Below are positions 5,338 to 11,765 of a DNA stretch of 24,275 nt, in pieces; the first letter of the stretch is position 1; the number at the start of each line of letters is the position of its first letter. This DNA comes from a virus, in the IMG/VR virus record IMGVR_UViG_3300028146_000036, positions 1 through 24,275 of that record; one strand, given 5' to 3'. Below the pieces are notes generated by a model, which saw only the letters and a program-made list of their open reading frames with translations, was not told where the DNA came from and did no database searches. Made by a program: the position numbers and the translations under genes.

Positions 5338-5393
5338 TCCCGCGCCCCGCCGCGCCGCGAGCCACGCCAGAGCGCCAGCGGGCGGGCGCATGA
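5334..5393 (+). CDS. Tiny overlapping ORF (19 codons)
   Basis: A 19-codon frame with a GTG start overlapping the previous stop (GTGA) and a stop overlapping the next ATG (ATGA). The peptide is Pro/Arg/Ala rich. It may only keep translation coupled between its neighbours. Support comes solely from the two perfect overlaps. Confidence 0.25.
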   Translation: MIPRPAAPRATPERQRAGA

Positions 5394-5494
5394 GTCTTGC
5401 CCGGTTTCTGCTTTGTATCGTCCTGGTGATGCTAGTCATCCCCGTGGTGGGGGTGGTTGCGATGAAATTGATCTGGATTTGGTGTTGTCTATGA
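5390..5494 (+). CDS. Small single-pass membrane peptide
   Basis: 34 residues: a short polar start (MSLAR) and a continuous hydrophobic segment (FLLCIVLVMLVIPVVGVV) followed by MKLIWIWCCL. Start and stop both overlap neighbouring genes (ATGA at each end). It is too short to assign; holin-like or toxin-like membrane peptides have this look, but no partner lysis gene is adjacent. Confidence 0.5.
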   Translation: MSLARFLLCIVLVMLVIPVVGVVAMKLIWIWCCL

Positions 5495-7190: not shown

Positions 7191-7420
7191 GCTGGCGCGA
7201 CCTTGCCGCCCCGATCATTGCCCGGGTGCTGGCCGAGACCGACCGCAGCCGGTATGGCCCGAAACGTGGGGTCGAAGGCTCACCGCTGAAACTGTCACCA
7301 TCACCCAGCCCTTGCCGACAGCCCCGGCCGAGGCGACTGCGGGTCATCAGGGGGAAGACGTTTGCCGGATCGCAACCGGACGCCCCTTACTTACAAGCCG
7401 GGGGTTGCGCGCCAGCATGA
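7187..7420 (+). CDS. Hypothetical protein, probably frame-broken after residue 25
   Basis: 77 codons. The start (SWRDLAAPIIARVLAETDR) resembles the N-terminus of small phage proteins with a DLA-PIIA-VLAET opening. After about GPK the frame becomes Ser/Pro/Arg rich and loses coding character, while coding-like sequence continues in a second frame (VWPETWGRRLTAETVTITQP) and later a third (from 7362). Either the gene is short and the rest is by chance, or one or more indels broke a longer gene. The start is secured by an ATGA overlap. Confidence 0.45.
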   Translation: MSWRDLAAPIIARVLAETDRSRYGPKRGVEGSPLKLSPSPSPCRQPRPRRLRVIRGKTFAGSQPDAPYLQAGGCAPA

Positions 7421-7571
7421 CGCGGCAGCGCGCACGAAACGGGTTAAGCACGTATGGCCTGAGTACCCGCCCCTCATTTCGGGCGACCCGATAAGCGAGA
7501 GCAGCGTGCAGTCCAAAACAGTCACCGTTGGGGCCTTCCTAGTGAGGGCTTGTCTATGCTCTGTCGGGTAG
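7362..7571 (+). CDS. Coding-like frame of uncertain status
   Basis: An open frame from a TTG preceded by GGGGAAG. The peptide (RNRTPLTYKPGVARQHDAAA, then RVKHVWPEYPPLISGDPISE) reads like a real polar protein and its third positions are GC-rich in the first 45 codons. It may be the 3' end of a gene whose 5' part is in another frame (see 7187). No homologue was recognised. The following 110 bases (7572-7680) are non-coding apart from a palindrome. Confidence 0.3.
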   Translation: MPDRNRTPLTYKPGVARQHDAAARTKRVKHVWPEYPPLISGDPISESSVQSKTVTVGAFLVRACLCSVG

Positions 7572-7586
7572 GACTGAGTAGACAAA

Positions 7587-8214: not shown

Positions 8215-8483
8215 TGCGCCCGGTGGACGGATCTGATGTCTGCGCTTCGCATCAAAGACGTAGCGGGATGAGCGCCCTACCGGATTGCGAAGCGTGCCAA
8301 GGAACGGGAAAGTCCTTCGATGGTTTGCGCAATTGTGAGCGATGCGGCGGGCTGGGATACGACGAGTACGCCGAGCCAACCCATGACCGCCCGACATGCG
8401 GCTGTAAACTCTGTTTCTGCTTCAATGAAACGGAATATGGAGAAACGTGCGGCGACTGTCTGGTTGGGGCGCATCAGGGTTAG
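8214..8483 (+). CDS. DnaJ-type CxxCxGxG zinc-binding protein
   Basis: About 89 residues. CEACQGTGKSFDGLRNCERC with GGLGY is one pair of CxxCxGxG-like repeats as in the DnaJ central zinc domain. A second Cys-rich part, CGCKLCFCFNETEYGETCGD followed by C, may bind another zinc. No J-domain is present, so it is not a co-chaperone as such; small phage proteins of this type are of unknown role. The TGATG overlap favours the start at 8214; an ATG at 8268 (MSALPDC) is the alternative. It is the last gene of this rightward block. Confidence 0.7.
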   Translation: MRPVDGSDVCASHQRRSGMSALPDCEACQGTGKSFDGLRNCERCGGLGYDEYAEPTHDRPTCGCKLCFCFNETEYGETCGDCLVGAHQG

Positions 8484-8493
8484 CCCTGCCATC

Positions 8494-8507
8494 GGCGCTT
8501 TAGCGCC
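8494..8507. terminator. Short hairpin at the convergence of two transcription units
   Basis: GGCGCTTTAGCGCC can form a 5-6 bp GC stem with a tiny loop, between the stop of the rightward block (8483) and the stop of the leftward block (8500-8502, inside the loop). Position fits a shared terminator, but there is no U-tract on either side, so the assignment is weak. Confidence 0.3.
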
Positions 8508-8577
8508 CCCAGTACCACGCGCACGCCAGCGCGAGTTCCAGCGCCAGCGTGACGGCGAGCACGGCGAGGACGGTCAT
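8500..8577 (-). CDS. 25-residue hydrophobic peptide, copy A
   Basis: The ATG overlaps the upstream stop (ATGA). The peptide is one hydrophobic helix with a central Glu (VLAVTLALELALACAW) and an aromatic/Arg end (YWGR). A gene of exactly equal length and the same core (LTLALELAL) lies at 9658-9735 in the same operon. A conserved acidic residue in the middle of a transmembrane helix hints at oligomerisation or partner binding. Too short for standard gene calling. Confidence 0.55.
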   Translation of the reverse strand: MTVLAVLAVTLALELALACAWYWGR

Positions 8578-8789
8578 GGCTTGATCCCATCGGCAAGAAT
8601 TTCGTTGATCGTCGGCTTGCGCTCGACTCGCGTGAACGCTTTGCACTTAGTATCGTGGAATGGAAAGGATTTGAGATTGCTAAATCCTGGACGTGCCCTG
8701 CACTCGTACCACCAGATATGGGGCATTTCCCATGACTCGACGGCGCGAAGGAAGTACTTGCAGGCGCGGCAATTGTTGGCCATGGTCAT
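8574..8789 (-). CDS. Conserved hypothetical phage protein with Cys motifs
   Basis: About 71 residues. The N-terminus ANNCRACKYFLR and the block WYECRARPGFSNLKSFPF followed by TKCKAF give four Cys in a CxxC...C...C pattern, probably one zinc site. This NC-aC-fF...WYEC...FPF..T.C pattern recurs in uncharacterised phage proteins. The start at 8789 overlaps the stop of a mini-ORF; 8783, 8 nt after a GGGGG run, is equally possible. It ends in an ATGA overlap with the hydrophobic peptide gene. Confidence 0.7.
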   Translation of the reverse strand: MTMANNCRACKYFLRAVESWEMPHIWWYECRARPGFSNLKSFPFHDTKCKAFTRVERKPTINEILADGIKP

Positions 8790-8821
8790 TGCCCCCACTC
8801 GCAGGCTATCAGAATCCTCAT
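8786..8821 (-). pseudogene. 11-codon ORF, possible remnant of a methyltransferase-like gene start
   Basis: AAGGG lies 9 nt before an ATG that opens MRILIACEWGQ and then stops in an ATGA overlap with the next gene. The first eight residues match the usual beginning of phage C5-cytosine-methylase-like proteins (MRILVACE-S), and the operon signals at both ends are intact. An internal deletion that left only the ends is a reasonable explanation; it may equally be a leader peptide. Confidence 0.35.
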
Positions 8822-8842
8822 GATCGTTTCCCTTTAGTTAGC

Positions 8843-8880
8843 GGGAGGAGTAATCTACCTGCACCCGCGCCGCTCCTCCC
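8843..8880. repeat. Inverted repeat GGGAGGAG ... CTCCTCCC
   Basis: Perfect 8-bp arms (8843-8850 and 8873-8880) with a 22-nt loop, inside the 135-nt gap between two leftward genes (8822-8956). In the transcript the hairpin could hide or mimic ribosome-binding sequence, because one arm is itself a Shine-Dalgarno-like run. No U-tract follows. No other gene is supported in this gap. Confidence 0.45.
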
Positions 8881-8956
8881 TTGCGGCGCCGGCTGGGTCG
8901 CCCGCTCACTCCCCGGTGGCGCGGCGGCCCTGTTTTTGCTGTGGTTGATATGGCGG

Positions 8957-9172
8957 TCACTCGTTGCGGTGGGTCTGGATATATGCAATAGCCTCACGGG
9001 CGATCATGGCGCAATCTGACAGCGCGGATGGATCGCTGCAATGAACGCCTTGTTCTGCCGCAGCAAGTACATCCTGCAATGCCTTAAACATGACGCGATG
9101 ATGCTTTGCTGCCCAAGTGGGGAGTGGTTCGCGTAGTTGTTGGAGCGGCGGTTCATAGTCGTATTGTTTCAT
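8957..9172 (-). CDS. Hypothetical protein
   Basis: 71 residues, with helical segments (REPLPTWAAKHHRVMFKALQ, then DVLAAAEQGVHC) and a C-terminal helix (ALSDCAMIAREAIAYIQTH). No domain recognised. The ATG overlaps the stop of the upstream gene (ATGA). GC content is somewhat lower than in surrounding genes, hinting at a different origin. Confidence 0.6.
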   Translation of the reverse strand: MKQYDYEPPLQQLREPLPTWAAKHHRVMFKALQDVLAAAEQGVHCSDPSALSDCAMIAREAIAYIQTHRNE

Positions 9173-9590
9173 TTTGACATTTCATCGTAAGCGATGGCGG
9201 CATCAATGATGACGTCAAGATTGATAACGTCATCCACTTTCTTGAACAGTTTTGTTTGCCAGTAGCCGGTGCGCACATTCCCAACATCCTGTGCGAAGGG
9301 ATCCGTTCTCCACCACATGTTTCCTCGTAGCCATTGATAGCGTTTTGCGTCGGGGAGGACCCTGCGGTAATGTTCCAATGCTTCGTGTTTGTCGCGGGCC
9401 ATTGCCCTGTACTCTCCTTCTATGGTGTCGGTTGCACAGCTCGGAACGGTTCCGCGAATTGACCCGAAATGTTTTTCTGCTTCTTCGCGCTCGGTGAAGA
9501 TCTCGCCGCAGTGAAAACACGTCCAGCCGCTTTAGTAGGAGTCTTCCTCCGCGCACAACAAAACGCCCGGTTTTCAGCATGTACGATCAC
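9169..9590 (-). pseudogene. Zinc-finger phage protein with N-terminal frame break
   Basis: The well-defined part is 9169-9402 (77 residues from an ATG; DAKRYQWLRGN and VINLDVIIDAAIAY resemble the D-xRYxWLR...IDAAIDA pattern of phage proteins). The same frame continues upstream as WTCFHCGEIFTEREEAEKHF, GSIRGTVPSC, EYRAMARDKH, an obvious Cys2-type finger, up to a TAA at 9532-9534 with no start codon. Just beyond, another frame continues as AENRAFCCARRKTPTKAA from a GTG at 9590. One base missing at an A-run near 9531 would join them. If the break is real, translation may begin at 9402 behind AAGGAGAG. Confidence 0.55.
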
Positions 9591-9657
9591 CTCCGCCTCG
9601 GGGCTGGCAAAGCCTGCGCGATGCGCTGCGCAGCCGACAACCAGGGGAGGATGATGT

Positions 9658-9735
9658 CTAGCCCCGCCACCACGCCAGCATCCCGAGGGCGAGCTCTAGC
9701 GCCAGCGTGAGGGCGAGGATGGCCAAGGCACTCAC
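9658..9735 (-). CDS. 25-residue hydrophobic peptide, copy B
   Basis: GTG start overlapping the stop of the HTH gene (GTGA). The sequence is one hydrophobic helix with a central Glu (LAILALTLALELALGMLAW) and a basic end (WRG). It has the same length and core as the peptide at 8500-8577, with diverged DNA, so this is an old duplication maintained as protein. No partner gene is evident; the role is unknown. Confidence 0.55.
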   Translation of the reverse strand: MSALAILALTLALELALGMLAWWRG

Positions 9736-9908
9736 TGGCGCCGCGGCCTCAGCACCGCCACAATCATCCGCTCCAGCGCCGTGCGTAGCCCGCGCGTACC
9801 CGCCTCCAGGTGCTGCCACTGCCGCAGCGACACGCCGCAGAGCTCTGCCGCGGCGGTCTGAGTCAGCCCGGCGGATTCGCGCAACAGGCGCAGCTCGGGG
9901 CCGGTCAT
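9732..9908 (-). CDS. Small XRE/Cro-type helix-turn-helix protein
   Basis: 58 residues, almost entirely one HTH: LRLLRESAGLTQTAAAELCG, then VSLRQWQHLEAGTRGL. The GLTQ-AAelcGVS-R-wQhlEaG pattern is that of XRE-family or related phage regulators. ATGA overlap with the upstream gene and GTGA overlap with the downstream peptide gene. It could control this accessory block or be an antitoxin-like partner for the hydrophobic peptide right after it; the latter is inference from adjacency. Confidence 0.75.
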   Translation of the reverse strand: MTGPELRLLRESAGLTQTAAAELCGVSLRQWQHLEAGTRGLRTALERMIVAVLRPRRQ

Positions 9909-11290: not shown

Positions 11291-11431
11291 TCAGCAACCG
11301 TAGCCATGCCCACTGCAACCCGCAAAGCGTCTGTAGGTCAGCGTATGCCCGAAAAGGATCGCGAACAGGACCGCCAGCAGCAGGAACGCGACGACCAGGA
11401 AGAGTACCTGCCCTGGGATGAGGGACAGCAT
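11291..11431 (-). CDS. Putative small membrane protein
   Basis: 46 codons: LSLIPGQVLFLVVAFLLLAV, then LFAILFGHTL, a strong transmembrane segment, and a Cys/Gly-rich tail (RRFAGCSGHGYGC). Third positions are GC-rich. There is no good ribosome binding site. On the opposite strand the same bases read as a very acidic, Gln-rich peptide (EKDREQDRQQQERDDQEEY), so strand assignment is uncertain. Confidence 0.35.
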   Translation of the reverse strand: MLSLIPGQVLFLVVAFLLLAVLFAILFGHTLTYRRFAGCSGHGYGC

Positions 11432-11765
11432 GAGCCGGACAGCGCACCGACTGACTGACCTGAGCCAGCAGCAGCCGGACCAGGAACAGGTCTCCTCCCA
11501 TCGCTGCCGCATCGCTTCCCGATCGGTCCCCAGCCGGTTCAGCCTGCGTCCCAAGTGGTAGCCCAGTGGGAAATGACCGATCGGCACCGTGTTGACATAA
11601 CGCTGATTGCGTGACAGTCAGCGATCGGACGGGCCGCAAGTGGGAGTGGAGTGGGAAACGGGGCGATGTGAGCGCTCGCTGACCCGGCTCCTCCGGGACC
11701 CACGACCCCGCCCGACGGTGGGTTGAAAGTGAGCCTCACAGCCCCGGAGAAATGCGAGCATTTTC

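Follow-up and report, generated by a model that had tools for sequence, protein, structure and literature searches.

Results

The Peptide Genes and Their Setting

The DNA analyzed here (the window) is the complete IMG/VR record IMGVR_UViG_3300028146_000036, with 24,275 bases and a GC content of 0.63. It encodes a terminase large subunit (phrog_38, E 3e-34), a portal/adaptor protein, an exonuclease and an Erf-like annealing protein. Two ORFs on its minus strand encode peptides of 25 residues each. Peptide A (8500–8577; MTVLAVLAVTLALELALACAWYWGR) starts with an ATG within an ATGA sequence, which overlaps the TGA stop of a gene for a small Cys-containing protein (8574–8789, minus strand); G002, the closest relative of this phage, has another gene there. 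Peptide B (9658–9735; MSALAILALTLALELALGMLAWWRG) starts with a GTG within a GTGA sequence, which overlaps the TGA stop of a small XRE-type HTH gene (9732–9908, minus strand; HTH_31 of Pfam, E 1.4e-10). A preliminary description made from the sequence alone had reported two minus-strand ORFs of this length with a shared core, diverged DNA, different start codons and stop-start overlaps, the second directly after a small XRE-type HTH gene, and it proved exact on all these points. No clear Shine-Dalgarno sequence was found for the peptide ORFs, and no promoter in the peptide region was stronger than chance. For the gene upstream of A, 6 stretches matched the search pattern and none was confirmed as a relative, while relatives of the HTH gene were found at 6 IMG/VR loci, none of which had a membrane micro-ORF over the HTH stop.

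Aligned without gaps, A and B are identical at 14 of 25 residues and at 66.7% of their DNA, and TLALELAL is common to both. Their alignment score of 68 was reached in none of 5000 shuffles (shuffle maximum, 56), which bears out the earlier suggestion that the two are related at the protein level. Second-order Markov versions of the window contained two micro-ORFs with a common 8-mer in 2 of 100 cases and with a common 7-mer in 33 of 100. Taken alone, the shared core word would thus not be compelling; we regard the match over the whole peptide, the orthologue described below and the overlaps as compelling.

The Relatives and Their Peptides

The window terminase has only distant matches among cultured phages (the best with 22% identity over 72% of the query) and the portal protein has none, so that the window belongs to an uncultivated phage group. 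DNA similarity of the peptide region to cultured phages was confined to a single 118-bp piece, found in 4 records. Relatives were collected by a terminase scan, which yielded 9 loci, and by an alignment-based scan, which yielded 27. The terminase of G002 is 97% identical to that of the window, and that of the second relative, G001, is 83% identical.

The orthologue of A in G002 (MTLTAIVLITLALELALACAWYWGR; L016:6646–6723, minus strand) is identical to A at 19 of 25 residues. Its start lies in an ATGA that overlaps the stop codon of an 81-residue gene, which is not the gene preceding A. The homologous DNA is a 103-bp block (window 8478–8580, minus strand; L027 14183–14285) of 82.5% identity (E 5.8e-24), which consists of ORF A extended by 3 bp at its start and by 22 bp at its end and stands isolated in the local alignment, the adjoining sequence having no homology to G002 on either side. 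A diverged member in G001 (MTLAILAVCAVIELALWFAWRHSRNTTGD; L021:15173–15262, minus strand) starts in a TAATG that overlaps the stop codon of an ArdA-like gene of 135 residues. This gene matches phrog_2059, annotated as 'anti-restriction protein' (E 1.6e-4), and PF07275 was found in 7 of 15 aligned members of its family (best, 1.1e-5); the G001 protein itself has no PF07275 match, and a comparison of the family with PDB sequences returned none. Homologues in relatives, which the preliminary description had proposed to look for, were present, and the stops and frameshifts that were sought in their ORFs were absent, both relatives that have the peptide keeping the ORF open.

No two of the four copies have the same upstream gene, and an HTH gene precedes only one of them. 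The HTH gene of G002 (L016:7914–8096) is followed by an unrelated ORF, and the G002 peptide lies more than 1 kb away behind another gene. PADLOC returned only generic HTH models for the neighbour genes. In G001, a second HTH copy with a stop after 23 residues (L021:14884–14964, minus strand) was also observed upstream of the intact HTH gene.

All four peptides are predicted by the Kyte-Doolittle scale to have a single hydrophobic segment of membrane-spanning length, their 17-residue maximum being 2.3–2.5. Met1, Ala5, Glu14, Leu15, Ala16 and Leu17 are identical in all four, so that each keeps ELAL and a single mid-helix Glu, in line with the original remark on a Glu buried in a hydrophobic helix. 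Positions 8, 12, 16 and 20 are occupied mostly by small residues. None of the four matches any Pfam family at E values up to 1, the peptides match no lysis PHROG, and Rfam gave no match. The G001 member (E 0.0021) and B (E 0.92) matched phrog_7793, a profile of 47 positions and unknown function, for which A and the G002 peptide gave no match. Since matches to this profile also appear in 9 of 14 control genomes, those of the peptides may reflect composition only, and membership was not adopted; the G017 match to it lies inside an open frame of 333 residues.

Other similarities between the window and its relatives were recorded. Stretches of 29–48 bp at 43–71, 1278–1325 and 1625–1662 are 100% identical to G002 within diverged surroundings, a sign of fine mosaicism. 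Approximately 200 bp at 7376–7580 are 87–89% identical to both G001 and G002, with neighbours that are less alike or unlike, and a 128-bp block at 8818–8945, upstream of the unit ending in A, is 93% identical to G002 and holds the inverted pair GGGAGGAG...CTCCTCCC; neither of these two has an Rfam match. A predicted membrane protein encoded at 11291–11587 (minus strand) contains the stretch LMLSLIPGQVL..VVA.LLLAV, which is also found in G002 (L016:8678–8845).

Extent of the Family

When a profile of A and the G002 peptide was run over 15,335 micro-ORF starts, B (E 0.0023) and then G001 (E 0.043) came next after the training sequences. A profile of A and B placed G001 third (E 0.004), while with a profile of A, B and the G002 peptide G001 dropped to rank 4 (E 0.59), behind an unrelated ORF. 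A profile of all four members, which match it by construction, found nothing else clearly above shuffled decoys in 54 clade loci (680,568 bases, overlaps included), the best other E value being 0.22 and that of the decoys 0.29. The family was thus found in 3 of 29 clade contigs, namely the 27 from the alignment-based scan, G005 from the terminase scan (scanned as part L107 only) and the window, many of which are fragments.

Scanning viral contigs for the TLALELAL core gave 17 stretches, 5 of which fit the in-frame regular expression and 12 of which do not; the one micro-ORF among the 17 is that of G002. A pattern running from the start codon to AW gave 3 stretches in viral contigs, two being the family members of G001 and G002, and 20 in genome contigs, none of which is a hydrophobic micro-ORF of this family. 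In tblastn searches of cultured phages, the G002 peptide had no match, and the G001 peptide matched 5 records, all with E values of 2 or worse. A word search of literature titles and the starts of abstracts found no description of these peptides.

Tests for Selection on the Peptides

The preliminary description had taken conservation at the protein level to imply function, and over the full length of the ORFs dN/dS did not bear this out. In no pair was the whole-ORF ratio significantly below 1 (A and G002, pN 0.17, pS 0.27, P 0.19; A and B, pN 0.34, pS 0.31; B and G002, pN 0.42, pS 0.47). In codons 10–17, a stretch chosen post hoc, all changes are synonymous (3 between A and G002, 4 between A and B, and 5 between B and G002). 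When the 103-bp block was read in all six frames, pN/pS was lowest in the sense one (0.41, P 0.08). When A was allowed to change neutrally in a simulation, which used a simple model and was compared with relatives that had been found by searching for such peptides, hydrophobicity at or above the observed level and Glu14 as the sole helix charge were both kept in 0.9% of cases with 14 changes and in 0.1% with 24. Only the post-hoc and simulation tests suggest selection on the peptides.

Membrane Micro-ORFs at Stop-Start Junctions

In 35 pieces of clade DNA, strongly hydrophobic micro-ORFs of 18–45 residues accounted for 17 of 300 micro-ORFs at stop-start overlaps with an upstream frame of at least 80 codons, compared with 43 of 5276 without overlap (Fisher 8e-9; two entries in the list are alternative starts of one ORF). 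Membrane micro-ORFs are thus approximately seven times commoner at stop-start junctions after long frames than elsewhere in the clade. With upstream frames of 50–80 codons 5 of 200 were strongly hydrophobic, and with frames of 20–50 codons there was no excess (4 of 601). The excess was weaker in 37 other viral loci taken as a control, L117 among them (3 of 89 vs. 21 of 2887, P 0.03, at a threshold of 2.3; 3 of 89 vs. 57 of 2887, P 0.27, at 2.0). A comparison with Markov sequence (24 observed vs. 0–2) was discarded in favor of these overlap counts, as it overstates the enrichment because random sequence is without long frames.

Other micro-ORFs of this kind were observed. The window has one at 5390–5494 (plus strand; 34 residues, Kyte-Doolittle value 3.3), in a stop-start arrangement after an open frame of 124 codons. 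A second membrane micro-ORF family with the pattern MSD..GD..V..C....AI..GW occurs in stop-start overlaps at L082:723, L026:18743 and L021:8407 (all minus strand). It is found in three relatives, G012, G006 and G001, and its scores were reached in 0, 0 and 4 of 5000 shuffles. The G001 member follows another membrane micro-ORF (start at L021:8520), forming a stop-start chain. At L117:3261–3365 (plus strand), a 34-residue membrane micro-ORF overlaps an ArdA-like gene through a TAATG. After it come a small gene and then one that is HTH-like (named by eye, XRE-like), which is the gene layout of G001. The L117 contig has no match to the window terminase, and its peptide was rejected as a homologue, its score being reached in 489 to 1886 of 2000 shuffles. 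ArdA-like genes were examined at 15 viral and 5 cultured loci, and 2 of these 20, G001 included, had an overlapping membrane micro-ORF.

Discussion

A Probable Coding Micro-Gene Family

We consider it likely that the micro-genes are coding. They form a real and probably functional family, which is probably a new member of a broad known kind, the phage membrane microproteins. That the ORFs are instead non-functional, being hydrophobic out-of-frame readings of GC-rich DNA behind real genes that came to resemble each other through recent recombination of short segments, is in our judgment unlikely. Such an origin would agree with the near-neutral whole-ORF dN/dS, with the ease with which Markov versions yield a common 7-mer and with the DNA identity that runs on for 22 bp beyond the stop of A; the last 16 codons, in which A and its G002 orthologue differ by only 4 synonymous changes, could also be of recent origin. 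It does not readily account for the stop-start overlap at the beginning of all four copies or for the one Glu that each retains, nor for the edges of the 103-bp block, which nearly match the limits of the ORF, the rarity of this outcome in the neutral simulation and the excess of such ORFs across the clade.

A Model for the Peptides

We tentatively propose, at somewhat less than even odds, that A and B belong to a small family of microproteins that cross the membrane once, are coupled in translation to the upstream gene and pair with a membrane protein, most likely one of the host, in an accessory function. In favor of this are the isolated block in G002, the G001 member, the ranks of B and G001 with the profile of A and the G002 peptide, the residues identical in all four copies, the sense-frame pN/pS, the neutral simulation, the enrichment at junctions and the layout in L117. 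The whole-ORF dN/dS, the drop of G001 once B is in the profile, the occurrence in 3 of 29 contigs, and the lack of a clear Shine-Dalgarno sequence and of a promoter stronger than chance weigh against it. Ribosomes that finish the upstream gene would restart at the overlapping start codon of the peptide, a step that we infer from the lack of a clear Shine-Dalgarno sequence and from the fact that such overlaps are known to couple translation. The peptide would then enter the membrane as a single helix whose Trp/Arg end faces the cytoplasm. This orientation follows the positive-inside rule, charge-based topology being a rule of thumb. As the stripe of small residues and a buried Glu are features by which helices pair, the small-residue stripe and Glu14 could provide two faces for pairing. 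The partner may be a host membrane protein, which is the simplest target; the protein encoded upstream is unlikely to be the partner, because it differs in all four copies. The role would be an accessory one in host takeover, exclusion or anti-defence, exerted, perhaps early, from operons of small genes, as the ArdA-like and HTH genes of the region suggest.

The products of gene pairs that overlap are reportedly often subunits of a heteromeric complex (PMC10666635), and the peptides could accordingly be membrane anchors or subunit partners of the proteins encoded directly upstream. With four different upstream genes for four copies, we regard this as improbable. The overlap of B with the HTH gene would fit a toxin-antitoxin pair, with the peptide as membrane toxin and the XRE HTH protein as regulator, and the preliminary description had pointed to this neighbor. 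Only one of the four copies adjoins an HTH gene and that of G002 precedes an unrelated ORF, its peptide being more than 1 kb off, so that the partnership is not conserved and a toxin of this type is quite improbable. A phage peptide that forms a short membrane helix and buries a charge might also be a holin, a pinholin or a lysis-timing peptide; a lysis peptide was among the earlier suggestions. The holin of G002 (phrog_9284, E 1.5e-11; L027:2595–2807) and its candidate endolysin (L027:1197–1595; named by eye) are, however, encoded on the opposite strand in another region, and A and B lie among small minus-strand genes; a lysis role is therefore not favored and has very little probability. Least probable of all is a regulatory reading frame, in which the act of translation rather than the product would matter, for example for mRNA stability or downstream reinitiation: the ORFs are short and overlapping and one lies downstream of a regulator, but no recognized same-strand gene overlaps or abuts the peptide stop in A, B or G002, and the Glu and the hydrophobicity are retained at the residue level.

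Comparison with Known Systems

Phage-encoded small proteins are reportedly the subject of Fremin et al. 2022. Small proteins (<100 aa) encoded by phages are predicted in genome surveys (PMC11323111); like A and B, they are tiny, usually unannotated and located in accessory regions. In contrast to the proteins described there, A and B match no named family, and their stop-start position and change of upstream partner are documented.

CydX-type bacterial subunits (PMC6005532) resemble A and B in being a single short hydrophobic helix. The CydX helix is tolerant of sequence change and binds a larger membrane protein; it has two conserved glutamates at the helix end, and the E25A/E28A double mutant was like the wild type (PMC6005532). 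In A and B, in contrast, the Glu is mid-helix, and we rejected membership in the CydX family, as none of the four peptides has a Pfam match at E values up to 1. YohP-like membrane proteins of Escherichia coli, which have 27 residues, are similar to A and B in size and single-helix build and show that such short proteins can enter the membrane (PMC7549839); they are host-encoded, whereas A and B are phage-encoded. Gene pairs that overlap in ATGA or TGATG are coupled by termination-reinitiation (PMC6728339, PMC10666635). The ATGA, GTGA and TAATG junctions of the peptides resemble these overlaps, from which coupling would follow here as well.

Implications

A broader reading, which we hold to be doubtful, is that stop-start junctions behind accessory genes, such as those for anti-restriction proteins and small HTH regulators, are slots for unrelated membrane micro-genes, the Glu-helix family being one cassette whose buried Glu would seize a host membrane protein. 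If this is true, a membrane-acting effector could be added to an accessory operon already present in approximately 80–100 bp, with no need for a promoter or ribosome site of its own. If the family is real, a recurring class of phage genes may escape gene finding, namely membrane peptides of 18–45 residues that rely on ribosomes already translating the upstream gene. Together with the enrichment at junctions, the recurrence of the layout with a different peptide in an unrelated phage would then make such junctions a testable source of new membrane-targeting anti-host functions.
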